A DNA stretch of 23,439 nt, taken from a virus. Position 1 is the first letter of the stretch, and each line of letters begins with the position of its first letter. Both the position numbers and the translations under genes were made by a program. The stretch is taken from the IMG/VR virus record IMGVR_UViG_3300033143_006098, positions 1 through 23,439 of that record. The stretch is one strand, 5' to 3'. The notes under the pieces were generated by a model. The model was not told the DNA's origin, made no database searches, and saw only the letters and a program-made list of their open reading frames with translations. Below, piece after piece: positions 10,085 through 23,439 of this stretch.

Positions 10085-10092
10085 TACCTAAT

Positions 10093-10934: not shown

Positions 10935-11006
10935 CTTTGACGTTATTTATAAATGTGGCTAAACATTATTTGTATTTTGTATTATACTAACAATAATCTA
11001 CTATGT

Positions 11007-11407: not shown

Positions 11408-11410
11408 GCA

Positions 11411-11494: not shown

Positions 11495-11510
11495 ATTTTT
11501 TACTTTAATA

Positions 11511-12278
11511 TTAAATTGCTGTATGTTCATGAAAGTCATATCCAATAGCTATATCTATAACTCCTCCAGAAGTATTCGTAACTTTTACTGTATAATTCTT
11601 ATTATGGTCAAACCACCAGTATGCTCCCGTGGTTTCTCCTCCAACAGCTGAAAACTTTCCTGCTGCTCCGAGTAAAGCACATTCCAATTCAGTTCCATCA
11701 GCACCAATAGTCGGGTCTCTAAAAAAAGTTGCATCTGGACTTGCATCAGTTTCACGATTTAAACAACGAGGAATTACAGTAGTTCCATCACCCGTTATAG
11801 TTGGAGTTTCATAAAGGAAAAGATTTGCTTTCCCTGAAGTCATTATTCCAATATTCCCATGAGGAGTTTTATCTCCTGCTTTTATAAGAAAATAAACAGA
11901 ATTAGTATCAGCAATAGCTGACCAACAATAATTAGCATAAAACTCTTTAGATTCTTTGATTCTATGATGAACGGCTCTTGCAACCACTAAAGCATCACAA
12001 CAAACAGATGCACCAACAATATCTATCTGACCATGTCTATCGTCATCTACTAACATTCTTCTTCCATTCCCTGCTGCATCTCTAAATCCTCTGGTATGCA
12101 ATCTTCCAGCTGAATCAACAATAACATAACGAACTGTTCCGCTTCCATCTATATCAGAATTTCCTTTTAATACAATTTCACTTTCACCATCGTCATTAAC
12201 TTTTATTACAATATATTTGCCATCAGATGTCCGTCCAACGATTATTTGTTTATTAGTATTTTCAATTTCTTCTGCCAT
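11511..12278 (-). CDS. virion surface/decoration-like structural protein
   Basis: A 255-aa protein with a variable N-terminal part (VGRTSDGKYIVIKVNDDGES, RYVIVDSAGRLHTRGFRD). A conserved beta-rich C-terminal half runs from FYANYCWSAIADTNSVYFLI and NLFLYETPTITGDGTTVIPR through CLNRETDASPDATFFRDPTI to YWWFDHNKNYTVKVTNTSGG. That half (sheath-like strands, L/YE-x-PT, NR, DPT, W-x-L/D-x-N-x-x-Y, VTN) recurs in phage head decoration or fibre proteins. It follows two small genes in a tight, overlapping operon. It is probably exposed on the virion. The exact part (head fibre, tail) is not clear. Confidence 0.65.
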   Translation of the reverse strand: MAEEIENTNKQIIVGRTSDGKYIVIKVNDDGESEIVLKGNSDIDGSGTVRYVIVDSAGRLHTRGFRDAAGNGRRMLVDDDRHGQIDIVGASVCCDALVVARAVHHRIKESKEFYANYCWSAIADTNSVYFLIKAGDKTPHGNIGIMTSGKANLFLYETPTITGDGTTVIPRCLNRETDASPDATFFRDPTIGADGTELECALLGAAGKFSAVGGETTGAYWWFDHNKNYTVKVTNTSGGVIDIAIGYDFHEHTAI

Positions 12279-12492
12279 TGTTATTCATTAGCCAATTAAA
12301 CACTTCTAGCTTAATTTCTAACTTTATTACTTCGTCTTTGTGTCCTTTTCTTTCATTCTCTAAAAAAAGAGCATGAATTCGTTTTTGTTCATGTCGTATT
12401 TCTTTCACAGATCTTAATTCTCTTTTGATTTTCCGATTAGTTCTATATCTGCTTAAAATAGTTCTTGGAAGTTGTATTAATCTTTTTATCAT
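12262..12492 (-). CDS. small basic helical protein
   Basis: A 76-aa, strongly basic, helical protein: LPRTILSRYRTNRKIKRELR, then a heptad-like KGHKDEVIKLEIKLEVFNWL. No Cys, no membrane span. Its ATG overlaps the TGA of the upstream gene, and its end overlaps the start of the virion protein by 17 nt, so translation is likely coupled in this stretch. Basic coiled-coil proteins in this position can be head-tail connectors or DNA-associated virion proteins, but nothing specific is recognised. Confidence 0.55.
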   Translation of the reverse strand: MIKRLIQLPRTILSRYRTNRKIKRELRSVKEIRHEQKRIHALFLENERKGHKDEVIKLEIKLEVFNWLMNNNGRRN

Positions 12493-12785
12493 TCTTTTAT
12501 CATTAATTTAATATTAAAATCTTCATCAACTGTTGAATTACTAATTGCAAGTGTGCAAATTCCAAGTACAGGTAATTCTAACAACTCGTTTAACTTGCCA
12601 ATCACATTAGTTCGAGTTAATATTACGTCATCGTCACTATCCGTAATTGTAAAATCAAACACTGTCGATGAAGAAGATGATTTAATAAAGATATGTTTAA
12701 TATAACCGCCTGGAATATACAAAGTGTTTCCACACCATTCACCAGAGTCAATTTCAATTGTTTCGCGATATGTATAGAATAACAT
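12489..12785 (-). CDS. small beta-rich structural protein, unknown
   Basis: A 98-aa acidic, beta-rich protein: TYRETIEIDSGEWCGNTLYI, then GYIKHIFIKSSSSSTVFDFT, then NELLELPVLGICTLAISNST. Such short proteins, with one sandwich and a Ser-rich turn, are common near phage head genes. The stop TGA overlaps the next ATG. No Shine-Dalgarno. I do not know a named family. Confidence 0.5.
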   Translation of the reverse strand: MLFYTYRETIEIDSGEWCGNTLYIPGGYIKHIFIKSSSSSTVFDFTITDSDDDVILTRTNVIGKLNELLELPVLGICTLAISNSTVDEDFNIKLMIKE

Positions 12786-12786
12786 A

Positions 12787-13080
12787 TTAGTAGATAGTTA
12801 ATGGAAAAAACACATCGTCATGATTTGAATAATTTTTATATCCTATCTTTTTCATTTGTTCAATATGCTCTGGATAAACTGCAATATAGCCTTCTACTTT
12901 ATTATGACCACAACAACACTCAAGAGTTTTAATTTTCATCTTCCATAATTTTTTAATTTCATCTAATATGCAATTATCAATATTGCATAACTTATATTTA
13001 CCTGTAGAATATTTCCAGAACGTTTTAAGCACTGTGCTATTTGAATAACTTCCCATTTCTACATTTTGACATTTACACAT
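12787..13080 (-). CDS. cysteine-rich phage protein with CCCGH motif
   Basis: A 97-aa protein. The most marked part is TLECCCGHNKVEGYIAVYPE, a CCCGH-x-K...I-V motif that I recognise from small phage proteins of unknown function. An N-terminal C-x-C (MCKCQNVE) and further Cys at KLCNIDNCI suggest metal binding. A hydrophilic C-terminal stretch follows (HIEQMKKIGYKNYSNHDD). It starts 2 nt after the exonuclease stop. It probably binds zinc or another metal; there is no evidence for an enzyme activity. Confidence 0.55.
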   Translation of the reverse strand: MCKCQNVEMGSYSNSTVLKTFWKYSTGKYKLCNIDNCILDEIKKLWKMKIKTLECCCGHNKVEGYIAVYPEHIEQMKKIGYKNYSNHDDVFFPLTIY

Positions 13081-13081
13081 G

Positions 13082-13612
13082 TTATATGTTAATTAATTCT
13101 TCGTAACATTTCTTTGTTGCGCGAGCATCACCCAACGCAGAATGAGCATCCTCAAATTCAATCCCAAAGAAATGTCGATATAGTTCTGTTAATTTAGGCC
13201 ATTTCCCAAATATTTTCCTGCTTTTCTGCATAGTGCAAAATCTTTTGTCTTTATGCAACGCATTAACAATCTCTTCTTTATCAATTCCAAATCTTAATAG
13301 ATTTGCTTTTATGATCGAAATGTCAAAGTAAATATTATGGCCAACTAACTTCTCTGCTTTCTTTGCAGCTTCTAAAAACTCAGTTAAAATTTCTTTCCCA
13401 TCTCTACCCTCTTTCATTGCTCTTTCTTGATTAATGCTGTGAATGTCAGCTACTTTTTCAGGTATCATCCAACCATCTGGTTTAATAATATAACAATGTT
13501 CTTTGTCATTAATCCAAGCAATCTGGACAATATAAGGAAATCTATCATAGTCTGTTTCCCAATTTGCTCCATTTGGAATTAATCCTGTCGTCTCGACATC
13601 AAAAGTCAACAT
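13082..13612 (-). CDS. DEDDh 3'-5' exonuclease (DnaQ-like)
   Basis: A 176-aa protein with the full DEDDh set: D5 and E7 in TFDVETTGLIP, D97 in VGHNIYFDISIIKANL, and H157/D162 in DAHSALGDARAT. This matches the proofreading exonuclease domain (DnaQ/epsilon fold), a metal-dependent 3'-5' nuclease acting on single-stranded or mismatched DNA or RNA. Length is normal for a stand-alone phage version. It is one of the few left-arm genes with a strong ribosome site (AAGGAGG, about 10 nt before the ATG). It could proofread phage replication, degrade host DNA or trim RNA. Confidence 0.88.
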   Translation of the reverse strand: MLTFDVETTGLIPNGANWETDYDRFPYIVQIAWINDKEHCYIIKPDGWMIPEKVADIHSINQERAMKEGRDGKEILTEFLEAAKKAEKLVGHNIYFDISIIKANLLRFGIDKEEIVNALHKDKRFCTMQKSRKIFGKWPKLTELYRHFFGIEFEDAHSALGDARATKKCYEELINI

Positions 13613-13833
13613 ACTTTATGTCCCTCCTTATCCCACGAGATCCGTAGATTCTCCTTCCCCCATTTATCATATCCTATGCCGAAATGTTCTGCAATCCATT
13701 CGAATAATGCAGACATTGTTTCTTTGTCAGTATCCCTGTCTTCAATAACTTCTTTTTGTGTTTCAAAAACTCCCTCCTTAACTTCCTCGTCCCATGAGAG
13801 AATGTAACCATTAGTTATTCTGTCAATTTTCAT
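13606..13833 (-). CDS. small acidic phage protein, unknown
   Basis: A 75-aa acidic protein: KIDRITNGYILSWDEEVKEG, then EDRDTDKETMSALFEWIAEH, then GYDKWGKENLRISWDKEGHK. It has the look of small phage proteins of the ITNGYxLxWxEE type found near nucleases, but no function is known to me. Its ATG overlaps the stop of the preceding gene, and it ends inside the start region of the exonuclease, so the three genes form a coupled cluster. Confidence 0.6.
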   Translation of the reverse strand: MKIDRITNGYILSWDEEVKEGVFETQKEVIEDRDTDKETMSALFEWIAEHFGIGYDKWGKENLRISWDKEGHKVC

Positions 13834-13988
13834 AATATCTCATCAATAATAAAATCTGCCATGTCGTCATTCGTCCATTCTTCCAACATATCTATCTCTT
13901 CACTATTCTTATCAGGTTGCTTACAATTCCGTATATATTTCTCAAATCCCCATTCATCTAATAATTTTTTTATTTCAGATTTAGTCAT
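13830..13988 (-). CDS. unknown 52-aa protein starting at the tRNA 3' end
   Basis: Starting at the ATG at 13988 it reads TKSEIKKLLDEWGFEKYIRN then an acidic C-terminus (EEWTNDDMADFIIDEIL). A longer frame could start at GTG 14012, but that lies in the tRNA T-arm, so the ATG is preferred. There is only 1 nt between the tRNA discriminator base and this ATG and no ribosome site, so tRNA 3' processing would leave a nearly leaderless message. Helical, probably a small regulatory protein; not recognised. Confidence 0.6.
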   Translation of the reverse strand: MTKSEIKKLLDEWGFEKYIRNCKQPDKNSEEIDMLEEWTNDDMADFIIDEIL

Positions 13989-13989
13989 A

Positions 13990-14062
13990 CAGGAAGGAGG
14001 TGAATCGAACACCTGACTCTGGTTTTGGAGACCAGTGTTTTACCTTGCTAAACTACCGACCT
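13990..14062 (-). tRNA. tRNA-Trp (anticodon CCA)
   Basis: A 73-nt cloverleaf: acceptor AGGTCGG, D-stem GTTT/AAAC, anticodon arm CTGGT-CTCCAAA-ACCAG (anticodon CCA), variable AGTC, T-arm AGGTG-TTCGATT-CACCT, then CCTTCCT and discriminator G. The CCA end is not encoded. The acceptor stem has two adjacent mismatches (positions 4-69 U.U and 5-68 C.U), unusual for a working tRNA. The 5' end overlaps the portal gene's last codons and stop (TAG is tRNA nt 8-10). The 3' end abuts the next ATG. Confidence 0.88.
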
Positions 14063-15510
14063 AAACTTTTTTCTGCAAAAGCACGACCATATGCTTCAAA
14101 CTTTTCTGTAAAATACGGATCGTCTTTTAGTTTGATTGCTTTTTTAATTAATTCTGTTTTTAACTCCTTTGACACTTTAACAGCAGGTTTTTTTAATTTG
14201 TCAAATGTTTCTTTCTTACCCGACTCAAAAGCTTTCAAAGCCATTTCTGCAGGATCCATTCGAGTTTCTAATCCTAAATACTCTGCAACAGAATTAGCTA
14301 AAGTTGATACATATTCAGAAGACAATAAACTAGGATCTTTTGTTACTAAGTTTTTAAATATTTCAAGTAGGTAGTTCTTTTGAGCACTGTGCAACGGTTG
14401 AAGCTTAATCTTCGGATAACTACCATTTTTGAAATTCCAATCTATCAATGGAGCAACAGCCCATTCATTCAAAGTATCCTCCATCGATCTCATCACCATC
14501 TGGAGCATTTGAATAATAAATTCATTTTGCTGGCTAACACCGCTTCCATAAGTGTATGCATATTTAGATTTTGTCCCCGTTTGAATCGCTTGCGCGAGTG
14601 TTGATAATACAATTTGAGTATCATGATGTTCAATTAAACTTAATACATCATAACCACTGCTTGCACGATCAATTTCTAAATCAAATCCAGTCGGCAAAGT
14701 TACTCTCGTATTTGCTCCAATATTATCTACAGCAGATTCAGCAGCAACTACTTCACCGCTGCTCATTGGCTTATTTAGCTTAAGCATTTTTACTCCAATA
14801 GCATCAACTTCTGCTTTTTTATGAGCCAGATAATAAAGTTTATGTTTCTTATCATAGTGATACCAAGCCGTTTTTAAAATTGACTCTCCATAAAAAGGAT
14901 GTCTCTCTTTCTGGAAAGTATAAAGAACTATTTTTTCTGGTGGAATATCAATATCAACTGTCCTAGTTCCGAATGTAGCTGTTTGATGAACACCTTTAAA
15001 TCCTCCGTGCTCATCAGCTCTAATCGAAATAGTAGAAGCATCTCGTTGAGCTAATTTTTTCCATCCAATTTTTCCTTTGTATTTTCCTTCTTTAATTATA
15101 TGGGGAACTTTTTCATACACACGAAATCCTTCGAAAATAGCTCTGGTCATATCAGCAATAATAAAAGAAAGAGGAGTAGACATTCCCCCTTCCTTTTGTG
15201 TTTTTAAAAAAACAGTTTCGATAAAATCTCTTTCTCCTTTATCATTTTTGCTAGGAAGAATTTTAATCGGAGTAGATTGAATTGGCATAGCAAACAGTCT
15301 AGTAATTGCACGGATCGTACCATCATTTTCCTGCATTGAAATATAAGAACCAATAGAACGAGAATCAGGATTTTCTTCCTCATTATAAGTACCAATGACA
15401 GTATCAGATCTTAAACCCAATTCATTCATTAATTGAGGCACTGTCAATTTTGGGGAGTCGTTAGAAATTTTTTTCTTTTTGAATCCCGTTAAAAAAGAAT
15501 AGAAAGACAT
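14053..15510 (-). CDS. portal protein (Mu gp29/DUF935-like)
   Basis: A 485-aa portal protein, the normal length. Typical parts are YISMQENDGTIRAITRLFAM near 55-75, FIIADMTRAIFEGFRVYEKV, KIGWKKLAQRDASTISIRAD, PEKIVLYTFQKERHPFYGES and HHDTQIVLSTLAQAIQTGTK, matching the gp29-like portals (DUF935), which form the DNA-entry ring and bind the terminase. A basic N-terminus (FKKKKIS) and a Lys-rich C-terminus flank the core. It is the first gene of the leftward cluster, with its own promoter and a short leader without Shine-Dalgarno. Its stop codon lies inside the tRNA gene. Terminase genes are not in this window. Confidence 0.88.
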   Translation of the reverse strand: MSFYSFLTGFKKKKISNDSPKLTVPQLMNELGLRSDTVIGTYNEEENPDSRSIGSYISMQENDGTIRAITRLFAMPIQSTPIKILPSKNDKGERDFIETVFLKTQKEGGMSTPLSFIIADMTRAIFEGFRVYEKVPHIIKEGKYKGKIGWKKLAQRDASTISIRADEHGGFKGVHQTATFGTRTVDIDIPPEKIVLYTFQKERHPFYGESILKTAWYHYDKKHKLYYLAHKKAEVDAIGVKMLKLNKPMSSGEVVAAESAVDNIGANTRVTLPTGFDLEIDRASSGYDVLSLIEHHDTQIVLSTLAQAIQTGTKSKYAYTYGSGVSQQNEFIIQMLQMVMRSMEDTLNEWAVAPLIDWNFKNGSYPKIKLQPLHSAQKNYLLEIFKNLVTKDPSLLSSEYVSTLANSVAEYLGLETRMDPAEMALKAFESGKKETFDKLKKPAVKVSKELKTELIKKAIKLKDDPYFTEKFEAYGRAFAEKSLGR

Positions 15511-15531
15511 AGAGTAAGATTAATTATTTTT

Positions 15532-15560
15532 ATTATAACACTAAAAGTAAACTTCGTAAA
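15532..15560 (-). promoter_or_regulatory. leftward promoter for the portal-led operon
   Basis: On the minus strand, TTTACG (15560-15555) and a perfect TATAAT (15537-15532) lie 17 nt apart. RNA would start near 15525, only about 15 nt before the portal ATG, again without a ribosome site. Confidence 0.65.
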
Positions 15561-16320
15561 ATATTACTATATTTTTAATTTTTTTTAAAAAGTTTTTAAA
15601 TGTAGTTTGAATGTAGATTTGATTTATTTTTATGTTTTTTATTTTACATATTTTGCTATATTGTTTGTATGATATTTTTAATATTTATTTTATATTACTG
15701 AAAAAAATTTTTAATACATTCTTTACCTTACTTATTTACCTTACATATATTACTATATTACTTTATTAAAAATTATTTTACATATAATACTATATTACTT
15801 ATTTGAAAAATATTTTTAATAAATCTTTTACCTATTTACTTTATCTTACCTTACATATATTACTATATTACCTTTATTATATTTATTTTTAATAATTTTT
15901 TTACCTTATTTTCTTTACTTATTTACCTTACATATATTACTATATTACTTTATTAAAAATTACTTTTGATATATTTGAGACCTATTAACGCCAAAAAATA
16001 CCTCTTTTTTTTTATCAATAATTTAATCTAACCCTTTAACAAAAAATCCTTAATATCTTTAATTTTTTAATCAATCCTAACATTAAAAACCCTCATTTTT
16101 ACCCTGACCATTTACCTCATCTTTACCAAATAAACCCCTTATAAACCATTTTAAGCACATACCCCGCCAAACCTTTCAAATACCCCCTACAAACCCAGTA
16201 CCCCCTAAATCTAACAAACCACCCTCAAAATCACAAAACCTTCTACAATCCATTTTAATACATTCTAACACTATCATACACACCCCCTAAAACCTCTCAA
16301 ACTCAACCCTAAACCCTCAA
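15561..16320. repeat. AT-rich direct repeats and G-free strand (origin region)
   Basis: A 46-bp direct repeat lies at 15730-15775 and 15917-15962, identical as far as I can read. A 26-bp core of it (TTACCTTACATATATTACTA and 6 more) recurs at 15846-15871, with a diverged copy near 15777-15800. From 15721 to 16320 the plus strand has only about 9 G in 600 nt, while C is frequent from 16020 on. No gene is present. AT-rich repeats next to DnaA boxes suit an unwinding region or iterons. The extreme strand bias suits R-loop formation by leftward transcripts. Confidence 0.75.
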
Positions 16321-16327: not shown

Positions 16328-16347
16328 TTATCCACAGGTTATCCACA
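16328..16347 (+). other. pair of perfect DnaA boxes, likely replication origin
   Basis: TTATCCACA at 16328-16336 and again at 16339-16347, 11 bp apart and in the same orientation, so on the same helix face. Both match the consensus bacterial DnaA box exactly. The AT-rich repeat region lies directly upstream. The phage probably uses host DnaA, or a plasmid-like mode of replication. Confidence 0.75.
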
Positions 16348-16387: not shown

Positions 16388-16415
16388 TTTACACACTTTT
16401 TAAATATGATACAAT
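16388..16415 (+). promoter_or_regulatory. rightward promoter for the small-gene arm
   Basis: TTTACA (16388-16393), 16 nt, then TGA-TACAAT with -10 box at 16410-16415 and an extended -10 TG. RNA would start near 16422, about 35 nt before the first gene-enclosing stem. This is the only good rightward promoter I see before the cassette array. Confidence 0.7.
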
Positions 16416-16454
16416 ATACATAAACATAACAGCACTTTAACAACTCAACCCCCT

Positions 16455-16739
16455 CATTATCTTAATCTTTTGGAACTTGAAAACGAAAGGATAAATCAAA
16501 TGACAAAAACAAAATCTTTAACATATGATATTGAAATCTATTTCAATAACTTATCAATTGAAAGTCAAAATGATTTAGTAAATCAATACATTTCACATTT
16601 CAATCTCAATAATACACTACAATCAAATGACAGAATAAAAATAAAAAACAATATTGCAAGTTATTTCCCAATCACCCACAAAATCACAATCTCTTAATTT
16701 ACAATTAATATTTCAAGTTTCAAAACATTAAGATAAATG
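16455..16739 (+). repeat. gene-enclosing inverted repeat, unit 0
   Basis: Arm 16455-16484 (TTATCTTAAT...TTGGAACTTGAAA) pairs with arm 16711-16739 (TTTCAAGTTTCAAAA...ATTAAGATAA). The unit-specific outer part TTATCTTAAT is matched only here. It encloses gene 16500-16697. Confidence 0.88.
16500..16697 (+). CDS. unknown 65-aa early protein
   Basis: The first gene of the rightward array. It starts at ATG 16500 after a CGAAAGGA ribosome site; a TTG at 16470 is in frame but lies inside the stem arm and is rejected. The protein is Asn- and Ile-rich, helical: LTYDIEIYFNNLSIESQNDL, VNQYISHFNLNN, ending YFPITHKITIS. No Cys, no membrane span, no recognised family. Being the first gene after the promoter suggests very early expression. 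Confidence 0.65.
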   Translation: MTKTKSLTYDIEIYFNNLSIESQNDLVNQYISHFNLNNTLQSNDRIKIKNNIASYFPITHKITIS

Positions 16740-17000
16740 GCAACAACAAAAGCCAACGACCAGCGATCTTTGACAAGCGAAATCTAAATGGGACACAAGA
16801 ACCCAAACCTATTCAGCAATAATTACCCCCTGAAGGGTATATGCTCAATATAACATTAAGGTTTTCTAGGGAAAGTTTAGATTTCAATTATACCATTATT
16901 CTAAAATAAATTTTTAGAATTATTATGGACATATTTATAAATTATAGCCAGCACAACCCCTGGCATAACGCACACGAATTATAAATATGTATAAAAATTT
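16740..17000 (+). ncRNA. structured intergenic RNA region between units 0 and A
   Basis: No convincing gene. Three stems stand out: GAAATCTAAA/TTTAGATTTC (16779-16788 with 16876-16885) enclosing a CCC-TGAA-GGG hairpin near 16828-16837; ATTCTAAAA/TTTTAGAAT (16898-16906 with 16912-16920); and a 14-15 bp stem (16929-16943 with 16977-16990) enclosing GCCAG/CTGGC (16947-16951 with 16960-16964). Two tiny frames (16 and 21 codons from 16738 and 16789) exist without ribosome sites. It may be a small RNA, or a degenerate cassette that has lost its gene. Confidence 0.45.
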
Positions 17001-17326
17001 CAAGTAGGTATTCTGAAGCTTAAGGGAAACATAGAAAGAATTATGATTATGAATTATAATGACCAATTAAAAGCATACAGAATCTTAGCATCAAAATCAG
17101 CAACTGATATTAGAATAACTGTAAATGAAATTAATAACAATATTATTGAAAGCAATGACAATAATAAATTCTTAAATCTTTCTGTATGGATTAATAAAAT
17201 TGAGAATGAATTAACAACATTAAAATTAGTCAACGAATTATCGACTAAAGCATACAGAAAACGAGAAAAGTTAGAAGAGTAAATTTATAAATTAATACTT
17301 CTCTTAAGCTTTAAAATACCTACTTG
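17001..17326 (+). repeat. gene-enclosing inverted repeat, unit A
   Basis: Arm 17001-17025 (CAAGTAGGTATTCTGAAGCT...) and arm 17302-17326 (TTAAGCTTTAAAATACCTAC...) pair at 22 of 25 positions, plus one G.U and one C.A. The outer CAAGTAGGTA is unique to this unit. It encloses gene 17049-17282. Confidence 0.92.
17049..17282 (+). CDS. unknown 77-aa helical protein
   Basis: Two ATGs are in frame (17043, 17049). The second is chosen because the GAAAGA-to-start spacing of 9 nt then matches the sister genes. The protein is helical: NYNDQLKAYRILASKSATDI, KFLNLSVWINKIENELTTLK, ending KAYRKREKLEE, with a short basic tail. No family recognised. It may act as a small DNA- or protein-binding factor. Confidence 0.65.
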   Translation: MNYNDQLKAYRILASKSATDIRITVNEINNNIIESNDNNKFLNLSVWINKIENELTTLKLVNELSTKAYRKREKLEE

Positions 17327-17342
17327 AATATGTGTGTATAAT

Positions 17343-17651
17343 ATACGGAGGGATATTCTGGAATTCAATAATTATAAAGGAAATATAATTATGGATACAT
17401 TAAAAGAATTATTATTAATTATAGGTCAATTAAAAGAGAATATGATAAATAAAAAACATAAATCAAATTCTCCTGAATATATTAAAAATCATATTTTAAC
17501 GCAAATTAAAATATGGTCCGGATATAATAAAAATGAAATTAAAGAATTAATACAATATATTAATTCGATGTCAATTAATATGTTAATGACATTATGGGAT
17601 AAATCATAAAATATAATTAAAATTATTGAGTTCCATACTATCCTTCCGTAT
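17343..17651 (+). repeat. gene-enclosing inverted repeat, unit B
   Basis: Arms 17343-17373 and 17621-17651 pair at 27 of 31 positions, plus two G.U. Unit-specific ends are ATACGGA/TCCGTAT outside and CAATAATT/AATTATTG inside. It encloses gene 17391-17609. Confidence 0.95.
17391..17609 (+). CDS. unknown 72-aa helical protein
   Basis: Starts at ATG 17391 after TAAAGGA; an earlier in-frame ATG lies in the stem arm and is rejected. All-helical look: DTLKELLLIIGQLKENMINK, SPEYIKNHILTQIKIWSGYN, EIKELIQYINSMSINMLMTL. The C-terminal part (KEL/EL-x-x-I...L-x-x-L-W) faintly resembles the next gene, so the two may be distant paralogues. No known function. Confidence 0.62.
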   Translation: MDTLKELLLIIGQLKENMINKKHKSNSPEYIKNHILTQIKIWSGYNKNEIKELIQYINSMSINMLMTLWDKS

Positions 17652-17652
17652 A

Positions 17653-18020
17653 GCTTAGGGAGATATTCTGGGACTTAAAGGAAATATAAAAAGAATATAA
17701 TTATGAATCCAAAAAAAGAATTAACCGAATTAGTAGAAGAGATAATGATTTATCACGGTTTACCTCAAAAAGGAAATGATGATGAATTTAGTAAATCTTA
17801 TGCTGAAGTTGTTATCCATCTAATTAATCAAATTATTGACAAAGATTCTGGTATATCTAAAAAACGTCAAAAAGAATTAATTGACTATCTTGATTATGAT
17901 ATACCAACTAAGGAAATAGAAAAATTAATTTCTCCAATGTGTATTTATGAATTATATATATTGGCGCAAAAATAATAATTAACAACTAATTTCTTTAAAT
18001 TCTAAAATATCTTCCTAAGC
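17653..18020 (+). repeat. gene-enclosing inverted repeat, unit C
   Basis: Arms 17653-17683 (GCTTAGGGAGATATTCTGGG...) and 17991-18020 (...AAAATATCTTCCTAAGC) pair with a few G.U and mismatches. GCTTAGG/CCTAAGC is unit-specific. It encloses gene 17703-17975 and abuts unit D directly. Confidence 0.9.
17703..17975 (+). CDS. unknown 90-aa acidic helical protein
   Basis: A 90-aa protein: MNPKKELTELVEEIMIYHGL, a polar loop with NDDEFSKSYAEVVIHLINQI, then KRQKELIDYLDYDIPTKEIE and a hydrophobic end (CIYELYILAQK). Helical and acidic; no motif of an enzyme or DNA-binding fold. The C-terminal layout is like that of the previous gene. The ribosome site is AAAAAGAA, weaker than in neighbours. Confidence 0.62.
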   Translation: MNPKKELTELVEEIMIYHGLPQKGNDDEFSKSYAEVVIHLINQIIDKDSGISKKRQKELIDYLDYDIPTKEIEKLISPMCIYELYILAQK

Positions 18021-18021
18021 A

Positions 18022-18330
18022 AATTATAGAAGGACATACTGGAACTCAAGAAGGAAAGGAATAAAAATATGAATAAAATTAAACACGATTATAAATGTGA
18101 TATGTGTGGTAAACCCGCTATTATTAATTTACAAAATTATTGGCATAAATATAGAATTGAAAAAAATGGTTCATTTATTGAAGAAGGCGAGTGGGAAGGT
18201 GAATCAAATGAATTCTATTGTGAAGAATGTGCTAAAGAAAATGGTTATATGTAGTATAATATAATATAGTAAATTATAGAATTAGTTAATTAGTTAATTA
18301 ATCTTGAGTTTCAATTCGTCCTTCTATAAT
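18022..18330 (+). repeat. gene-enclosing inverted repeat, unit D
   Basis: Arms 18022-18053 (ATTATAGAAGGACATACTGG...) and 18303-18330 (CTTGAGTTTCAATTCGTCCT...). ATTATAGAAGGAC/GTCCTTCTATAAT is specific to this unit, as is CTCAAG/CTTGAG inside. It encloses gene 18069-18254. Confidence 0.93.
18069..18254 (+). CDS. small zinc-finger protein
   Basis: A 61-aa protein with C10-x2-C13 (YKCDMCGKPA) and C51-x2-C54 (FYCEECAKENG), a clear four-Cys zinc ribbon with a 37-residue beta-rich insert (LQNYWHKYRIEKNGSFIEEG). Such proteins are common among phage early genes and may bind nucleic acid or a host factor. A good GGAAAGGAA ribosome site precedes the ATG. Confidence 0.75.
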   Translation: MNKIKHDYKCDMCGKPAIINLQNYWHKYRIEKNGSFIEEGEWEGESNEFYCEECAKENGYM

Positions 18331-18544
18331 GTCCGGGGAGATATTCTGGAACGTGAAATTATAGAAAGGGTATAATTATGAAAAAATACATTAAATTAAC
18401 ACGAAAATACTGGTTATGTTTTGGTTATACTAAAAACAAATCATTCTCGTTTTTCATTAAAGTACTAAATAATAATTCTAATTTAGAATGTTGGTAAATT
18501 AATAAATTAATAACATTTTCACGTTTCAAAACTTCTCCCTGGAC
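18331..18544 (+). repeat. gene-enclosing inverted repeat, unit E
   Basis: Arms 18331-18360 (GTCCGGGGAGATATTCTGGA...) and 18515-18544 (...ACTTCTCCCTGGAC) pair at 24 of 30 positions plus two G.U. Specific parts are GTCC/GGAC outside and CGTGAAA/TTTCACG inside. It encloses the 39-codon gene 18378-18497. Confidence 0.92.
18378..18497 (+). CDS. unknown 39-aa basic miniprotein
   Basis: A 39-aa reading frame: KKYIKLTRKYWLCFGYTKNK then SFSFFIKVLNNNSNLECW. It has a good ribosome site (GAAAGGG) and sits exactly inside a matched stem pair, which argues that it is a real gene despite its size. Basic N-terminus, aromatic-rich, two Cys. It could be a membrane- or RNA-associated peptide. No family recognised. 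Confidence 0.6.
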   Translation: MKKYIKLTRKYWLCFGYTKNKSFSFFIKVLNNNSNLECW

Positions 18545-18545
18545 A

Positions 18546-18787
18546 AAAATTGGAAGGATATTTTTGGAGTTTGATATAGAAAGGGTATAATTATGGACAA
18601 TCAAAAACTTTATTGCAAAATGGTGGAAAATATCTATGATATTATTCTCCAGACTAAATTCGAAAAAGTGGATTGGCTCTAAAAATGTCAGTGTTGACAA
18701 TAATCGCGGCATAATTGAAATTGGTGCTAATTTCAAATTAACATTAAAATAATTAACATCGAACTCCAGCATTATCCTTCCAAATTT
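18546..18787 (+). repeat. gene-enclosing inverted repeat, unit F
   Basis: Arms 18546-18577 (AATTGGAAGGATATTTTTGG...) and 18756-18787 (...ATTATCCTTCCAAATTT). The core differs from the consensus (TTTTTGGAG) and the partner differs to match (CTCCA), a good covariation case. Its 3' arm shares AATTT with the next unit's 5' arm. Confidence 0.9.
18593..18752 (+). pseudogene. small gene with a probable frameshift
   Basis: The ATG at 18593 follows the standard GAAAGGG leader, but its frame ends after 29 codons (18682). The +1 frame from the same point is open to 18752, filling the stem-enclosed space as in the sister units. It encodes KNFIAKWWKISMILFSRLNS, then ...VSVDNNRGIIEIGANFKLTL. One missing or extra base near codons 3-6 would join start and long frame into about 53 aa. 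This is either a decayed gene, a programmed +1 shift, or a sequence error. Function unknown. Confidence 0.45.
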
Positions 18788-18828
18788 AGAGAGACGTTCT
18801 GGGACTCAAGAGAGAAAGGAACACAATT

Positions 18829-19152
18829 ATGAACAATCAAGAAGAATTAACACAATTTGTTTTTCACGAAATAGGTGATAATCAAACAATGTTAATTGAC
18901 AAATTGTTAAAAGAATGTATTTTTAGTTGGGACGAAATTATAAACTACGAAGCAGATGAGGATTATCCTATTGAAATTATGGAATGGTGGCTAGCAACTG
19001 ATTGGATGATTGATAAACTGGAAGCAAAAGGCGAGATAATTCTTAAAACAGACTTTGGCAATTGGTGGGGAAGAACAAGTTCTGGACAGGCAATAATGTT
19101 AGATGAAGTGATTGAAAAGATTTATAACGAAATGAAAGAATATATGCCTTAA
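18829..19152 (+). CDS. phage protein with WWGRTSSGQAI motif
   Basis: A 107-aa acidic protein: DEDYPIEIMEWWLATDWMID, KLEAKGEIILKTDFGNWWGR, TSSGQAIMLDEVIEKIYNEM. The W-W-x-x-x-D-W, W-G-R-T-x-S-G-Q-A-I-x-L-D pattern belongs to a small phage protein family seen in many unrelated phages, of unknown function. Ribosome site GAAAGGA. Probably an early host-interaction or regulatory protein. Confidence 0.75.
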   Translation: MNNQEELTQFVFHEIGDNQTMLIDKLLKECIFSWDEIINYEADEDYPIEIMEWWLATDWMIDKLEAKGEIILKTDFGNWWGRTSSGQAIMLDEVIEKIYNEMKEYMP

Positions 19153-19283
19153 ACTAACGATTAATTAAGAATTATCCAGAAAAAACGCGGAATCCCGCCC
19201 GGGAAAAATTTAAAGGTGGTTTACTATGGAAAAATGAGTAGAAAAACGAAATCTACTAAAAAGAGCAAATTATTAAATTAACT
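19153..19283 (+). other. tail of unit G with possible 15-codon frame
   Basis: After the gene's stop comes a GC-rich hairpin (GCGGAATCCCGC, near 19179-19190). It is followed by a ribosome-like AAAGGTGGT and two overlapping tiny frames (ATGGAAAAATGAG; then MSRKTKSTKKSKLLN, 19233-19280). The peptide is very basic. Whether it is translated cannot be judged. Confidence 0.35.
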
Positions 19284-19583
19284 AATTCTTGAGTTCTAAA
19301 ATGTCTCTCTAAATAAAAAATTGCAATAAAAAACGTGATAACCTAAACACCGACTCAAAAATATGCCGATAGCTTTTTGACATGTTAGTGGATAAAAATA
19401 GACCATTAAAATGTTGCAGAGATAACTAGAGAGGGTTTTTAGATGAATTAACAAATTATTGTTGACAATGTAAAATATAGCAATAGTTAAAGTTTGTTTA
19501 TAATTACGCCAAAGAGTCGGTTTGACCCCCAGGGAGAACTGAAAATAAAGTGTTGCAGAGCAGTGCCAGAGTGGCTTATTTGG

Positions 19584-20125
19584 GATAAATTCTGGAAAAA
19601 TGAAAATTAGGTAAATATTGCATAAATTATACACGCAAGTGTGCTCTTGGAGAGAATATTTTGGGCATAAATTAGAAAATAAAAATGCTCAATAAATGCC
19701 TTAGGTTTAACCAAAACCGCGGCTTTTGGGTTTTGAAATAACGGCCTGAATTAATCGAACGAAGGGTGGCCCAAAAACCAAATACACTATAGAAATCGAT
19801 GAATTTTAATGAAATCTAATAAATTTTATTAAAATTTGTCGTTAGAAAATAAAATCGAATAAACATTGAAAAATAAAAAAAAGAAAAGAAAATGAATCTG
19901 GTAAACAAAAAATTGAATAATTAAGAATCCAAAAGCAGAATATGAATATAAAAAAATATGAAAGTATATCTTAATTGGTATTTATTTAATTAAGATTACT
20001 GATTATGTTATTGGAGGATATACTATTATGCTTTATCTTGCATTCCGCGCAATTTGATAAAGTGCCTCTATTTATGCTAGAGATGAAAAAACAAAAGTGT
20101 AGTATTTGACTTTTTAGAATTTATC
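19584..20125 (+). repeat. degenerate gene-enclosing inverted repeat, unit P
   Basis: Arm 19584-19602 (GATAAATTCTGGAAAAATG) pairs with 20107-20125 (ACTTTTTAGAATTTATC): ten perfect pairs, a bulge, then five or more. It has the CTGGAA core but no gene. It overlaps unit Q in interleaved order. Confidence 0.55.
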
Positions 20126-20207
20126 TATGGCTTCTACAAAATTAACGTACATTCCGCGCAACTTTGAAATGGGATACTAAATTATACCTTAAATATCCTC
20201 TCCAAGA
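19645..20207 (+). repeat. gene-enclosing inverted repeat, unit Q
   Basis: Arm 19645-19675 (TCTTGGAGAGAATATTTTGG...) pairs with 20177-20207 (...AAATATCCTCTCCAAGA). TCTTGGAGAG/CTCTCCAAGA is specific. It encloses no full-size gene. Confidence 0.75.
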
Positions 20208-20209
20208 AA

Positions 20210-20896
20210 AGTTTAGAGGGATACTCTGGAACTTGAGAATGAAAGAAACAATTATGGAAAAAATAACAAAAGAATACGAAGTATTTGAGTATGATGAATT
20301 AAGCACTGAAGCAAAAGAAAAAGTGCTTGAAAACAGTAGAGATATAAACTGCCAGGATTATTGGTATGAATACACCCTTGAAGATATGACTGAACGATTA
20401 AATGAAATGGGATTTGAAGATGCTGAGATATTTTTCTCAGGTTTTTGGTCTCAAGGAGATGGTGCTAGTTTCAAAGCTCAAATTAATATTGATAAGTTGT
20501 GTAAGTATTACAAGCTCAATACAACATTCGCGAAATTGCTTAAAGCATACGAAATCACTGGAAAGATAACTCAATCAGGTCGTTATTATCATTCTAACCC
20601 AATGAGTATTGAATTAGACTTCGAAACAAAAGGCAATTATGACGCAATAAGAAAAATTGGTGAAGCCAGACAAGCACTGCTTGATAAATTATCAGATGAA
20701 TTTGAGAATAAAGTATTGACAATTGCCCGAAATGAAGCTGATAAGATATATGATGAATTAGAAAAAGTATATGAAAGTTATCTTACTGACGAATCGGTGA
20801 TAGAGACACTTAAAGCAAATGAATTCAAATTCTTGAAAGATGGGTCAGTATTTTAATTAATTAATTTTCTCAAATTCTAAAGCATCTCTCTAAACT
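20210..20896 (+). repeat. gene-enclosing inverted repeat, unit H
   Basis: Arms 20210-20241 (AGTTTAGAGGGATACTCTGG...) and 20866-20896 (TTCTCAAATTCTAAAGCATC...). AGTTTAGAG/CTCTAAACT is specific. It encloses the 200-aa gene 20254-20856, the largest in the array. Confidence 0.92.
20254..20856 (+). CDS. phage FSGFWSQGDGA-family protein
   Basis: A 200-aa protein. It starts at ATG 20254, after GAAAGAA; the longer frame from 20164 would cross both stem arms and is rejected. It has the pattern of a widespread phage family: EVFEYDELSTEAKEKVLENS, then FEDAEIFFSGFWSQGDGASF, then SGRYYHSNPMSIEL, then a C-terminal helical domain (EADKIYDELEKVYESYLTDE). Family members are often annotated as hypothetical, sometimes as antitoxin-like. 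No catalytic set is visible. Function unknown. Confidence 0.78.
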   Translation: MEKITKEYEVFEYDELSTEAKEKVLENSRDINCQDYWYEYTLEDMTERLNEMGFEDAEIFFSGFWSQGDGASFKAQINIDKLCKYYKLNTTFAKLLKAYEITGKITQSGRYYHSNPMSIELDFETKGNYDAIRKIGEARQALLDKLSDEFENKVLTIARNEADKIYDELEKVYESYLTDESVIETLKANEFKFLKDGSVF

Positions 20897-20897
20897 T

Positions 20898-21215
20898 AAT
20901 TGGAAGGATTATCTGGAACTTAAGAATAATGAAAGGAATACAATTATGACAAAACCCGTCGTAAAATTAATAGATGAAGATGAAAATGCTTTTGCAGTGC
21001 TAGCAAAGGTTAATACAGCACTGAAAAAAGCAGGAATGGAAAAAGAAGCAAAAGAATTTATGGCAGAAGCAACGTTAGGTGGTTACGATCATTTATTGCA
21101 AACAGTGATAGATTACGTTGAAATTGAATAACCTAATACAATGAACATAATTTCAAAGAGATACATTTTAATTAAGATAATAATAATTCTTAAGTTTCAT
21201 ATTATCCTTCCAATT
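20898..21215 (+). repeat. gene-enclosing inverted repeat, unit I
   Basis: Arms 20898-20930 (AATTGGAAGGATTATCTGGA...) and 21185-21215 (ATTCTTAAGTTTCATATTAT...CCTTCCAATT). Outer AATTGGAAGGAT is matched exactly. It encloses gene 20946-21131. Confidence 0.94.
20946..21131 (+). CDS. small conserved phage protein (GGYDHLLQT type)
   Basis: A 61-aa protein: KLIDEDENAFAVLAKVNTAL, KKAGMEKEAKEFMAEATLGG, YDHLLQTVIDYVEIE. The pattern (E-D/N-x-N-A-F-x-L... KALKKAG... EF-x-E-A-x-x-G-x-YDHLLQ-x-x-x-x-Y) is one of the commonest small phage families across diverse hosts, function unknown. Good ribosome site GAAAGGAA. Probably an early host-takeover protein. Confidence 0.8.
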   Translation: MTKPVVKLIDEDENAFAVLAKVNTALKKAGMEKEAKEFMAEATLGGYDHLLQTVIDYVEIE

Positions 21216-21265
21216 ATATCAGAAAAGCTTTCTGGAACTTGAGAAGAATGAAAGGAAATAATATA

Positions 21266-21535
21266 ATGAATCTACACAAAAATCTCTATTACGATAAAGA
21301 GATTAGAGTCAAGAATAAGAAAATCTCAAAATTATCAATGTTATTATCAATTGAAACTCGCGATATTGCCAATGTGCCTGATTGTAAAGTTGGAAGTTTT
21401 AAGTATAACTTTTGGCTTAGAACTAACGCAGGAATAAATAAAAAAGCATATCGTTCCCGAAAAACTCTTGAAAAGGCAGTTGAAAAATTATTGATAAAAA
21501 ATGGATTTGTTATCCTTGGCTGGGAAAAATCTTAA
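21266..21535 (+). CDS. unknown 89-aa basic protein
   Basis: Starts at ATG 21266 after GAAAGGAAA; an upstream in-frame start overlaps the stem. Sequence parts: NLHKNLYYDKEIRVKNKKIS, then ETRDIANVPDCKVGSFKYNF, then AYRSRKTLEKAVEKLLIKNG and FVILGWEKS. A basic alpha/beta protein; the last part looks like a short helix plus strand as in RNA- or DNA-binding minidomains. Not recognised. Confidence 0.62.
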   Translation: MNLHKNLYYDKEIRVKNKKISKLSMLLSIETRDIANVPDCKVGSFKYNFWLRTNAGINKKAYRSRKTLEKAVEKLLIKNGFVILGWEKS

Positions 21536-21545
21536 TTCTCAATAC

Positions 21546-21606
21546 TATCACCTTTACAAATATAGCAAAAGGTGGTATAATAGAACTGGAAAGTGAGGTG
21601 ATAATT
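21546..21606 (+). promoter_or_regulatory. internal hairpin and alternative leader in unit J
   Basis: TATCACCTTT (21546-21555) pairs with AAAGGTGGTA (21568-21577), with one G.U. It is followed by GAAAGTGAGGTGATAATT directly before the ATG. The same leader is used at 22541-22559 and, with one change, at 22817-22834. GAGGTGAT is the ribosome site. Confidence 0.6.
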
Positions 21607-21771
21607 ATGACAGAATTTAACGTGATACTTCGAAAAATACAATATGCTGAAATGATAGTAAATGCAAAAAATGAAAAAGATGCAAAAGAATTAGCAATGG
21701 ATATATACGAAAGTGGAAACGCAAATTGGGGAGAAGTTGAAGTCGAAGTATTAGAAGTTGAAGAAATTTAA
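21607..21771 (+). CDS. unknown 54-aa acidic protein
   Basis: A 54-aa frame: TEFNVILRKIQYAEMIVNAK, NEKDAKELAMDIYESGNANW, GEVEVEVLEVEEI. The pattern (hydrophobic strand, then a helix EKDAKELAMDIY, then alternating V/E strand) is that of small proteins with a strand-helix-strand unit, such as the EAxxEEEA-type proteins in this array (compare 22197-22460). Strong GAGGTGAT ribosome site. It is the second gene in unit J. Function unknown. Confidence 0.68.
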   Translation: MTEFNVILRKIQYAEMIVNAKNEKDAKELAMDIYESGNANWGEVEVEVLEVEEI

Positions 21772-21838
21772 TAATTAACTTCTCAAGTTTCAAAATGTTT
21801 TTCTGATACACACAGTGTGCACGTTCCAGATATAGCTA

Positions 21839-22146
21839 CATTAAATAGACATTCTGGAACTTAAGAGATTGGAAAGAAATTAATTATGAATCGAAATTAT
21901 TACAATAAAGCAAATGCAATTATTCGGCGAATGAAAAAAATTGCAATAGATAAAGGCATTTATGAAAATTTCGGAGAGAAAGAATTAAGAAAGTTTAATG
22001 CCTTAATAAATCAAGATGATAATTTAACATACGCTGAAAGAGCAGAATTATCTGCTTATTTAAGTGAAATGTTATCAAGTATAGACGATAAAAATAAATT
22101 TAATTAAATTATAATTTCTCTTAAGTTCTAAAACGTCTATTTAATG
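21839..22146 (+). repeat. gene-enclosing inverted repeat, unit K
   Basis: Arms 21839-21870 (CATTAAATAGACATTCTGGA...) and 22113-22146 (...AAAACGTCTATTTAATG). CATTAAATAGAC/GTCTATTTAATG pairs perfectly and is specific. It encloses gene 21886-22107. Confidence 0.94.
21886..22107 (+). CDS. unknown 73-aa helical protein
   Basis: A 73-aa protein: NRNYYNKANAIIRRMKKIAI, DKGIYENFGEKELRKFNALI, NQDDNLTYAERAELSAYLSE. Two helices with a short linker; the N-terminal helix is basic, the rest polar. The YAERAEL-x-A-x-L part looks like a helix-hairpin. No Cys, no known family. Ribosome site GGAAAGAA. Confidence 0.63.
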   Translation: MNRNYYNKANAIIRRMKKIAIDKGIYENFGEKELRKFNALINQDDNLTYAERAELSAYLSEMLSSIDDKNKFN

Positions 22147-22149
22147 AAA

Positions 22150-22498
22150 GTTAGATAGATACACTGGAACATAAAAGACACGAAAGGAATAAAATTATGA
22201 CAATGTATAAAATTAAAATTGATCACGAAGATGAAATTGAAGCAAATAGTGAAGAAGAAGCACGTGAAAAATTTTACTTAGAAATGAAAAGACGCAATGA
22301 AAAAGCAGACACTTTTCTTGACGATCTTATCTCAATTAAAGAATTATGCCCTCATTGTGGTGTAGAATTAGAAAGTAAAATGATTGACATAGACGGAACA
22401 AATTTAGTAGAACACGATATTTGTCCAGAGTGTCAATATGGTATGCCCGCATTAACTTAAATTATAATTTCTCTTATGTTTCGTTTTGTCTATCTAAC
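22150..22498 (+). repeat. gene-enclosing inverted repeat, unit L
   Basis: Arms 22150-22180 (GTTAGATAGATACACTGGAA...) and 22469-22498 (...TTGTCTATCTAAC). GTTAGATAGA/TCTATCTAAC is shared in part with unit M, but the inner ACATAA/TTATGT is specific. It encloses gene 22197-22460. Confidence 0.9.
22197..22460 (+). CDS. small zinc-ribbon protein with EAxxEEEA helix
   Basis: An 87-aa protein. N-terminal strand-helix (YKIKIDHEDEIEANSEEEAR) of the type common in short phage proteins, then C51-x2-C54 (LCPHCGVELE) and C76-x2-C79 (HDICPECQYGMP), a four-Cys zinc ribbon. It may bind nucleic acid or a partner protein. The ATG at 22197 gives the standard 9-nt distance to GAAAGG; an alternative ATG lies two codons on. 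Confidence 0.73.
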   Translation: MTMYKIKIDHEDEIEANSEEEAREKFYLEMKRRNEKADTFLDDLISIKELCPHCGVELESKMIDIDGTNLVEHDICPECQYGMPALT

Positions 22499-22559
22499 AT
22501 TAGATATATATTCTGGAACTCGGAGATAACTAAAAAATTAGAAAGTGAGGTGATAAAAA

Positions 22560-22760
22560 ATGAAACAAGAAATAGAAAAAAGTTTTTTAGAACTTGTGGA
22601 ATTTCTACAAAACAACACAGGACTAGCAGAATACATACAGAGTTACGGAGGAAATGATGAAAAAACAGATAACTATCCCGAAGGAGAATATGCCACAATT
22701 GAAAGATATTTAAGAAGAGAAATTGAAGAAGAAGAAATTGAAAATTATCTTGAATGCTAA
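22560..22760 (+). CDS. unknown 66-aa acidic protein
   Basis: A 66-aa protein: KQEIEKSFLELVEFLQNNTG, then LAEYIQSYGGNDEKTDNYPE, then ATIERYLRREIEEEEIENYL. Very acidic C-terminal helix. The leader is GAAAGTGAGGTGATAAAAA rather than the common GAAAGGAATA type. First gene of unit M. Acidic small phage proteins are sometimes DNA mimics or inhibitors, but there is no specific sign of that here. Confidence 0.66.
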   Translation: MKQEIEKSFLELVEFLQNNTGLAEYIQSYGGNDEKTDNYPEGEYATIERYLRREIEEEEIENYLEC

Positions 22761-22768
22761 GCTACTGA

Positions 22769-22834
22769 CTATCCTTTCAAACTTTTTGAAAGAATAGATG
22801 AGTATCTTACTCACTAGAAAGTGCGGTGATAATT
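22769..22834 (+). promoter_or_regulatory. internal hairpin and alternative leader in unit M
   Basis: CTATCCTTTCAA (22769-22780) pairs with TTGAAAGAATAG (22786-22797), with one C.A mismatch. A second small hairpin GAGTA/TACTC follows, then GAAAGTGCGGTGATAATT before the ATG at 22835. The layout parallels the gap inside unit J. Confidence 0.6.
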
Positions 22835-23137
22835 ATGGCAAATTGGCAAAGAAAAATAGACATTAGCAAAATGTGGAAAAAATGTGAAAACGATAAAAGT
22901 CTTTTTCGTGAATTAGCAAAAGAGATTGTTTTCAAATTACGTCTATTACTTCCATTTGAAAATAGTCTTGATGATGAAAAAGAAGACTTAATTTATGAAT
23001 TTGAAGAAATAGTAAACTGTCCAGAATGCACAATAGAAGATTTTGATAACATAATGGAAGATCTATATGATTGGGGAGATATTAAATTAGACGATGAATG
23101 GCCACCGGCAAAAGTTTGTTGGATTGGAACGTTCTAA
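22835..23137 (+). CDS. conserved phage protein (YDWGD...CWIGTF type)
   Basis: A 100-aa protein. It starts at ATG 22835 (ANWQRKIDISKMWKKCENDK), after the GCGGTGAT site; an ATG 9 nt earlier lies in the leader and is rejected. The middle is LAKEIVFKLRLLLPFENSLD, the end DFDNIMEDLYDWGD then KVCWIGTF. The pattern W-x-x-x-I-D-I-x-x-x-W ... LAKEI ... EDFD-x-x-x-x-x-LYDWGD ... CWI-x-TF belongs to a common phage family of unknown function. Acidic, helical. Confidence 0.77.
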   Translation: MANWQRKIDISKMWKKCENDKSLFRELAKEIVFKLRLLLPFENSLDDEKEDLIYEFEEIVNCPECTIEDFDNIMEDLYDWGDIKLDDEWPPAKVCWIGTF

Positions 23138-23199
23138 ATTATAATTAAACTTCTCTGAGTTTCATAATATCTATCTAACTTAAGCAAATTATATTGCTT

Positions 23200-23439
23200 A
23201 AATAGACATTCTGGAACTTAAAGATAATTAGAAAGGGTATAATATGATATTAGATTCTACTGAAATTTTTATTCTTAACAAAATGATTGAAAGAGAAATG
23301 GGTAAAAAAGAAAACGATTCGTTATTCCGGGTTTTTAGAGAAATGAAAGAAAAACTTAAACATGAAAAAATCACATTACGAGCACTTGAAAATTTTTATC
23401 AATAATTAAAAAATTCTTTAAGTTTCAAAATATCTATTT
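23200..23439 (+). repeat. gene-enclosing inverted repeat, unit O (at window end)
   Basis: Arms 23200-23229 (AAATAGACATTCTGGAACTT...) and 23412-23439 (TTCTTTAAGTTTCAAAATAT...). Paired AAATAGA/TCTATTT and CTTAAAGA/TCTTTAAG; the 3' arm runs to the window edge. A TAAGCAA/TTGCTTA hairpin (23181-23200) sits just before it. It encloses gene 23244-23405. Confidence 0.88.
23244..23405 (+). CDS. unknown 53-aa basic helical protein
   Basis: A 53-aa frame: ILDSTEIFILNKMIEREMGK, KENDSLFRVFREMKEKLKHE, KITLRALENFYQ. Predominantly helical and charged. It has the GAAAGGG leader with TATAAT directly before the ATG, as in units E and F. It lies exactly inside the last matched stem pair. Not recognised. Confidence 0.65.
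   Translation: MILDSTEIFILNKMIEREMGKKENDSLFRVFREMKEKLKHEKITLRALENFYQ

Follow-up and report, generated by a model that had tools for sequence, protein, structure and literature searches.

Co-varying RNA stems enclose small genes in tandem arrays on viral contigs

In the right-hand part of IMG/VR record IMGVR_UViG_3300033143_006098, a viral metagenome contig of 23,439 nt that was analysed at its full length (the window), small genes are arranged in a tandem array whose units are each enclosed by a private pair of complementary arms. The arms pair as a helix of 27–30 base pairs with one central mismatch; the 5′ arm carries a core, UUCUGGRAC, which is common to six contigs, while the flanks of the core vary freely. 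That these stems are selected, and selected as RNA of the coding strand, is well supported. The array itself is confirmed and is stronger than the first-pass annotation of this DNA had claimed. Tandem units are present as described, but they number 16 rather than fifteen: head to tail, they occupy 16453–23439, 15 being complete and the last, P, cut short at base 23439. One or two small genes per unit had been proposed, and this holds for 14 of the 16; unit G has only a doubtful short open reading frame (ORF), and unit I apparently encodes a non-coding RNA. The statement that every gene lies in its own loop is largely correct, if slightly overstated; 16742–16997 and about 19316–19643 have no enclosing stem. 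The array does lie in the right arm, but the phenomenon extends beyond it to a late gene at 11003–11411. All three arm pairs quoted at that stage were found, namely ATACGGA/TCCGTAT in unit C, GTCC..CGTGAAA/TTTCACG..GGAC in unit F and CATTAAATAGAC/GTCTATTTAATG in unit M.

Units were located by inverted-repeat searches, an all-against-all duplex matrix and a hand-anchored alignment. In the matrix of window arms, own partners form duplexes with a mean energy of −33.4 kcal/mol, against −15.6 kcal/mol for the other combinations, and the own partner gives the best duplex for 15 of 16 arms; the exception is the truncated unit P. Neighbouring units frequently abut, arm directly against arm, and next-neighbour arms pair much more weakly (means of −13.9 to −26.1, compared with −31.5 to −43.6 for own partners). 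Five dinucleotide shuffles of the array region yielded 0, 0, 3, 0 and 0 comparable inverted repeats, and no chain. Across 297 partly overlapping loci (2.98 Mb), chains of at least three strong units were confined to array-bearing contigs.

Five further viral contigs share both architecture and core, and one of these is binned in a metagenome-assembled genome (MAG) of Patescibacteria. The latter came from a junction-pattern scan of 84,980 genomes; its array, at the end of contig 4 (L161/G007), has nine aligned units. This contig is phage-like, with PHROG hits to an exonuclease and a sigma factor, and its putative terminase shares 42–44% identity with one encoded by large relatives of the window virus. 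The same phage encodes a polynucleotide kinase-phosphatase, a T4-like RNA ligase and a tyrosyl-tRNA synthetase-like protein (L170 1446–2390, 4061–5128 and 279–1100). A second pattern scan, of viral contigs, found five units in L205/G391, past a divergently transcribed portal gene and thus placed as in the window, and a portal-profile scan found L231 (five matched units), L230 (one unit) and L237 (one unit). Unit d of L231 (minus strand, about 1868–1690) is evidently a recombinant: its 5′ arm resembles that of unit c, whereas its gene, which is truncated, and its 3′ arm resemble those of unit b. Array-bearing contigs have a portal protein about 59–65% identical to that of the window, or belong to the MAG phage, and every array reaches or sits near a contig end. 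No array was present in the first capsid-gene relatives (L009–L013) or in the large relatives of 37–77 kb, and many further relatives are likewise without one, so that the feature is patchy. No second array turned up when 384 genomes of the MAG's class and 380 of its phylum were scanned for the pattern. Among viral contigs, a loose core pattern gave chance matches only, a pattern of single arm plus ribosome site found no array, and the unit J protein had no match; its homologues in Acinetobacter, Cronobacter and Salmonella phages are not accompanied by a chain of stems. DNA similarity to annotated phages and plasmids revealed no comparable region.

Selection on the stems is evident from covariation. 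The 37 units from the arrays were aligned gap-free on the core, and partners were permuted within each array only, since units of one array are related. Over 16 flanking pair positions, the observed mean score was 15.08, compared with 10.48 (standard deviation 0.36) for permuted partners (z 12.8); the best permutation reached 12.19, and the own partner was uniquely best in 36 of 37 units. In a 36-row alignment, both sides change in 25 of 28 pair columns, and double changes fill 251 cells, against 71 ± 8 in shuffles. Paired cells make up 91.7% in register and fall to 30–51% when the partner is slid by one to three columns; a shift of a single base already cuts pairing by almost half.

The core behaves differently from the flanks. 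A single column is consistently unpaired, a central C facing A (30 of 36 units), and a G-U wobble lies three bases further on. Core columns +1 to +3 hardly vary on the 5′ strand, and on the 3′ strand they vary between pairing bases, with 45 G-U cells and no A-C cell. The flanks show the same bias to a modest degree (37 G-U against 18 A-C cells, p 0.014). This asymmetry, with a fixed 5′ side, a drifting 3′ side and a retained C-A mismatch, argues for RNA of the coding strand and against homogenisation by template switching. Template switching is a known mutation process at quasi-palindromes, and could in principle keep two arms alike without selection. It would, however, erase the asymmetric core, in which the C-A mismatch and the G-U pairs are kept; it does not account for the absence of random repeats of this kind from the rest of the approximately 3 Mb scanned, for an arm geometry tied to translation signals, or for the failure to correct unit d of L231. 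Such a mutational artefact is disfavoured to the point of deserving next to no credence.

Comparisons of homologous genes point in the same direction. The arms around unit d of G391 and unit f of L231, whose proteins are 42% identical, differ by seven double compensatory changes; those around unit a of L230 and unit a of L237 (56% identical proteins) differ by nine. Unit L of the window shares its gene with the last unit of L231 (57% identity), but the latter unit is cut. Independent change of the two arms around one gene in relatives had been named beforehand as the outcome that would speak against a selected stem; in the homologous-gene comparisons the arms change together.

A second class of stems, with a different core, encloses single late-operon genes, whose position near the portal gene varies. 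In the window it is represented by the late gene 11038–11367 (minus strand; arms 11387–11411 and 11003–11027). This gene has homologues in four contigs (L009, L230, L232 and L247), where the arms are unlike one another but self-matching; pairwise, they differ by 4–17 double changes with few breaks. Another late gene, found in L291 and the MAG phage (41% identity), is enclosed in both by unlike, self-matching arms. Stems of this class were located at L009 4691–5132, L230 3576–3994, L231 6673–7241, L232 2141–2473, L243 4759–5266, L247 14121–14446, L291 4287–5160 and L169 7602–8556; their 5′ arms often contain GTTCTTT, and many end in GTCAAG. The window virus and the MAG phage each have both classes, the early array and the late-gene stems. 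A further conserved inverted repeat, the third (TTAAGCAGGGACATAA / TTATGTCTCTGCTTAA), lies within the late operon or close to it and surrounds 140–180 nt in which no clear ORF is seen (L257 9708–9880; L251 4716–4871; L262 2392–2575; L230 3427–3565).

Unconstrained minimum free energy folding of whole arrays closes 33 of 35 stems: 5/5 in G391, 5/5 in L231, 9/9 in the MAG phage and 14/16 in the 7 kb of the window. In two control stretches of 7 kb from the left arm, the counts of comparable helices were 0 and 2, and the late-gene stem accounts for one of these two. The complementary strand also forms long helices, as inverted repeats must, so the strand is not chosen by folding alone. Compensatory change within and between arrays, co-change around homologues, the array folds and core G-U pairs without A-C together bear out the earlier proposal that the stem itself is selected.

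What the stems do is approached through their geometry. The inner end of the helix lies a median of 18.5 nt before the first ATG (interquartile range 16–21; some ATG calls were automatic and possibly one codon group off), with or without a visible Shine–Dalgarno sequence, and also a short way past the stop codon. Since the helix ends just outside start and stop, translation can run wholly inside the loop with the stem unmelted. This geometry would also suit loops that are never cut, in which the stem insulates cistrons of an intact polycistronic mRNA, holds the start near the stop so that ribosomes can be recycled, and keeps distant sequence from pairing with the start region. At either end the helix is positioned immediately beyond the ribosome footprint, the whole-array folds show stems this long forming over long distances, and replacing the 3′ arm by a scrambled one slightly lowers the accessibility of the start region, from 0.61 to 0.56 (p 0.003). 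The accessibility effect is small, however, and uncut loops explain neither the near-invariant core with its fixed C-A mismatch nor stems around the apparently non-coding unit I or around two genes; we consider this reading unlikely, though worth keeping in view. Two simpler functions were tried and rejected. For intrinsic termination, no terminator-like site (local hairpin plus U run) was found at the arms, and a promoter role of the 5′ arms, with TATTCT as −10 element, lacks a consistent −35 element and leaves the 3′ arm unexplained.

A small ORF closed by pairing of 5′ and 3′ ends is also seen in type I toxin mRNAs. In hok and AapA mRNAs, such pairing sequesters the ribosome site (PMC6733600), which stays hidden until processing; a few array products resemble small membrane proteins (G391 b, L231 b and G007 a). 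Type I systems have one gene per locus and an antisense RNA. In the arrays, by contrast, about 18 nt separate the end of the helix from the ATG, the ribosome site stays free, and most encoded proteins look soluble, which makes a toxin-like mechanism a distant prospect.

Alternatively, the arms could be recognition sites of DNA recombination cassettes, either as integron-like folded single strands or as terminal inverted repeats. Like integrons, the arrays consist of tandem single-gene cassettes with imperfect inverted repeats; their gene content is shuffled between viruses, the recombinant unit in L231 joins two neighbours, and the core might be a protein site. The plus strand folded as single-stranded DNA would likewise tolerate G-T over A-C. 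An integron attC site, however, folds within the intergenic site, whereas here the partners stand on opposite sides of the gene and pair far more strongly than neighbouring arms do. Copies of a transposon have their terminal repeats in common, but here each unit has arms of its own. Neither the fixed distance to start and stop nor the strict 5′/3′ polarity of the core is expected of cassettes, and no recombinase gene was seen near the array. No tyrosine recombinase IntI was noticed among window ORFs and family hits, which cover part of the ORFs of an incomplete contig. Recombination cassettes are accordingly considered very unlikely.

The reading that we favour, with confidence that is no more than middling, is that the stems close off domains of RNA and are cut by an RNase III-like enzyme into single-gene mRNAs with protected ends. 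Each accessory gene would form a closed domain of a long sense-strand RNA, in which the arm before the translation start pairs with its own partner after the stop, the helix itself being shown by covariation. This helix would present an invariant imperfect core (5′ UUCUGGRAC, the central C facing A and the G-U three bases on) to a double-strand-specific endonuclease, most likely host RNase III, which, assisted or guided by a core-reading factor, would cut in or near its middle. A single array transcript would thereby give rise to single-gene mRNAs, each with both ends joined as a base-paired stub, shielded from exonucleases and insulated from neighbouring messages. The second class of stems may act alike for single genes of the late operon. 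With an own matched stem per gene, genes could be gained, lost and shuffled as independent cassettes. At a more general level, the stems probably allow a single long transcript to serve as separate messages of one gene each, whether by cutting or by insulation. RNase III cutting, protected ends and an early transcript are plausible from three considerations, namely the geometry, the RNase III gene present in the MAG that carries an array, and the precedent of an intervening sequence (IVS) in Coxiella.

Several known systems share parts of this arrangement. The polycistronic early RNA of phage T7 is processed by RNase III between genes, at hairpins that are local, whereas the array arms pair across the gene. 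In rRNA precursors, long-range complementary flanks enclose the 16S and 23S segments of a polycistronic transcript. As in those precursors, array flanks enclose each RNA and pair across the enclosed segment, and the helix, at 27–30 base pairs with one central mismatch, has the length of about two turns or more expected of rRNA and IVS stems; the difference is that rRNA stems enclose structural RNA and array stems coding genes. The rRNA precursors are processed by RNase III (PMC4990558). The closest precedent is the 23S IVS/S23p of Coxiella burnetii, an ORF in a loop closed by a long imperfect inverted-repeat stem of 28 base pairs with a mismatch and a bulge, cut by RNase III in mid-stem (PMC4990558). 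Unlike the array, it is a single element inserted in a 23S rRNA helix, excised and degraded, with no core shared across genes; the window contains no rRNA, and only a tRNA matched above gathering score when the whole window was searched against Rfam 15. In Staphylococcus aureus cspA, RNase III trimming leaves a 5′ hairpin that stabilises the mRNA and helps translation (PMC3386247); a base-paired 5′ end after cutting is common to both, but the cspA hairpin is a local one at the 5′ end of one gene.

A number of points weigh against the cutting scheme. Neither the UUCUGGRAC core nor the C-A mismatch is required by generic RNase III, which leaves room for a different enzyme or accessory factor. 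The promoter-like site inside unit L could yield transcripts without the 5′ arm of that unit, and cutting does not necessarily stabilise, since the Coxiella IVS is broken down rapidly once excised. Unit d of L231, the only unit seen with non-matching arms, indicates that a mismatch is at least transiently tolerated. As to the host of the window virus, a search of 380 genomes from the MAG's phylum with the portal profile came up empty, and misbinning of the MAG contig is a possibility.

Because the universal core goes beyond what a generic substrate of RNase III requires, a further, specific recogniser is suggested, and it deserves serious consideration either alongside RNase III or in its place. 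Such a factor might even act without RNase III: a dedicated RNA-binding protein of phage or host could read the core and control stability, timing of translation or localisation, making the genes a stem-marked regulon. The core is kept over six contigs while the flanks change, and the window virus and the MAG phage each combine two or more stem classes whose cores differ; both observations speak for a regulon. On its own, however, an RNA-binding factor gives no reason for the arms to enclose a gene, and no shared candidate gene was seen in these incomplete contigs, which leaves the proposal decidedly doubtful. Returning to cutting at the stems, an extreme and highly improbable form would have the released loops joined into circular mRNAs; the MAG phage encodes the T4-like RNA ligase and the polynucleotide kinase-phosphatase.

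The window units all lie on the plus strand. Six of them are supported by inverted repeat, duplex, alignment and array fold: A (16453–16741; arms 16453–16483 and 16710–16741, ORF 16500–16697), B (16998–17329; arms 16998–17029 and 17298–17329, ORF 17043–17282), E (18022–18331; arms 18022–18052 and 18301–18331, ORF 18069–18254 with CxxC motifs), F (18329–18546; arms 18329–18359 and 18516–18546, a 39-residue ORF at 18378–18497), G (18545–18788; arms 18545–18576 and 18757–18788, short doubtful ORFs only, first ATG at 18593) and M (21838–22147; arms 21838–21869 and 22116–22147, ORF 21886–22107). Duplex, alignment and array fold support C (unit B of the first-pass annotation; 17341–17653, arms 17341–17378 and 17616–17653, ORF 17391–17609) and D (17652–18021; arms 17652–17684 and 17989–18021, ORF 17703–17975). 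Unit H (18783–19315; arms 18783–18812 and 19286–19315) is backed by inverted repeat, duplex, alignment and array fold alike and holds an ORF with a PHROG hit at 18829–19152, followed by an untranslated tail of about 130 nt. Inverted repeat, duplex and PHROG hits define J (20208–20898; arms 20208–20240 and 20866–20898, ORF 20254–20856, phrog_5162) and K (20896–21217; arms 20896–20928 and 21185–21217, ORF 20946–21131, phrog_1933), and inverted repeat and duplex define L (21216–21809; arms 21216–21247 and 21778–21809, ORFs 21266–21535 and 21607–21771). Duplex and alignment support N (22149–22499; arms 22149–22179 and 22469–22499), whose ORF 22197–22460 appears zinc-ribbon-like in the family search, O (22499–23179; arms 22499–22527 and 23151–23179, ORFs 22560–22760 and 22835–23137), which is open in the whole-array fold, and P (23199–23439; arms 23199–23225 and 23414–23439, the 3′ arm cut by the contig end, ORF 23244–23405).

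Unit I (19644–20208; arms 19644–19676 and 20176–20208), identified by inverted repeat and duplex, encloses what is apparently a non-coding RNA, with no convincing ORF; its predicted structure is strong (fold z −4.4), and a ATTCCGCGCAA motif recurs in it. Another structured non-coding RNA lies between units A and B (plus strand, 16742–16997; fold z −4.5). At about 16934–16985 it contains a motif, AYTATARCY..ACAAYCC..ATARCGCACACGAA, which is found between units in three arrays, with copies at L171 (minus strand, about 18250–18205 and 12928–12890) and L231 (minus strand, about 842–805); only one other viral contig carries a copy. Its small hairpin covaries (GCTTA/TAAGC, GCCAG/CTGGC and CCGG/CCGG). 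The intergenic RNAs of the array had no credible Rfam match even in lenient searches; the inter-unit RNA is possibly of the antitermination type or another regulatory RNA.

Two promoter-like sites were recognised in the window: TTTACA-16-TACAAT upstream of the array (plus strand, 16388–16415), by consensus match only, and the site inside the loop of unit L (plus strand, 21553–21581). The latter, CTTTACAAATATAG..GGTATAATA, is nearly identical inside the loop of unit f of the MAG phage (L171, minus strand, about 15400–15370). The structural module of the window runs leftward, with family hits to a Mu-like portal, an S78 protease and a gpT capsid protein; a tRNA-Trp gene (13989–14063) adjoins the portal gene, and a TnpB-like (IS605 OrfB) gene lies inside the module (3332–4480). 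The block of small genes runs rightward. Between these divergent modules is an A+T-rich, ORF-poor stretch with two DnaA-box-like TTATCCACA sequences at 16328–16347, possibly a replication origin. An independent contig of the same virus (L008/G001, 99.9% identical) spans 1–15980 and about 10 kb further left, and ends short of the array.

No comparable system was found in Rfam, in annotated phages and plasmids or in open-access papers (subscription literature being outside the scope), as the earlier reading of this DNA had anticipated. On balance, we lean slightly towards an undescribed mRNA architecture, in which private, co-evolving stems with a universal core read by a dedicated recogniser would create self-contained, transferable messages with sealed ends. 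It may hide in other genomes, because arms 200–850 bases apart escape local RNA-structure searches and because arrays tend toward contig ends. Operons of phages and bacteria are usually seen as open strings of genes with local signals; the array is instead a chain of closed RNA domains, mostly of one gene each, and evolution gives strong proof that the helices closing them are maintained. The arrangement offers a testable route by which a phage could obtain messages of single genes that need no promoter or terminator of their own. It may also account for the shuffling of accessory genes as plug-in modules, and it points to a general design for bacterial mRNAs that are insulated and protected at their ends.

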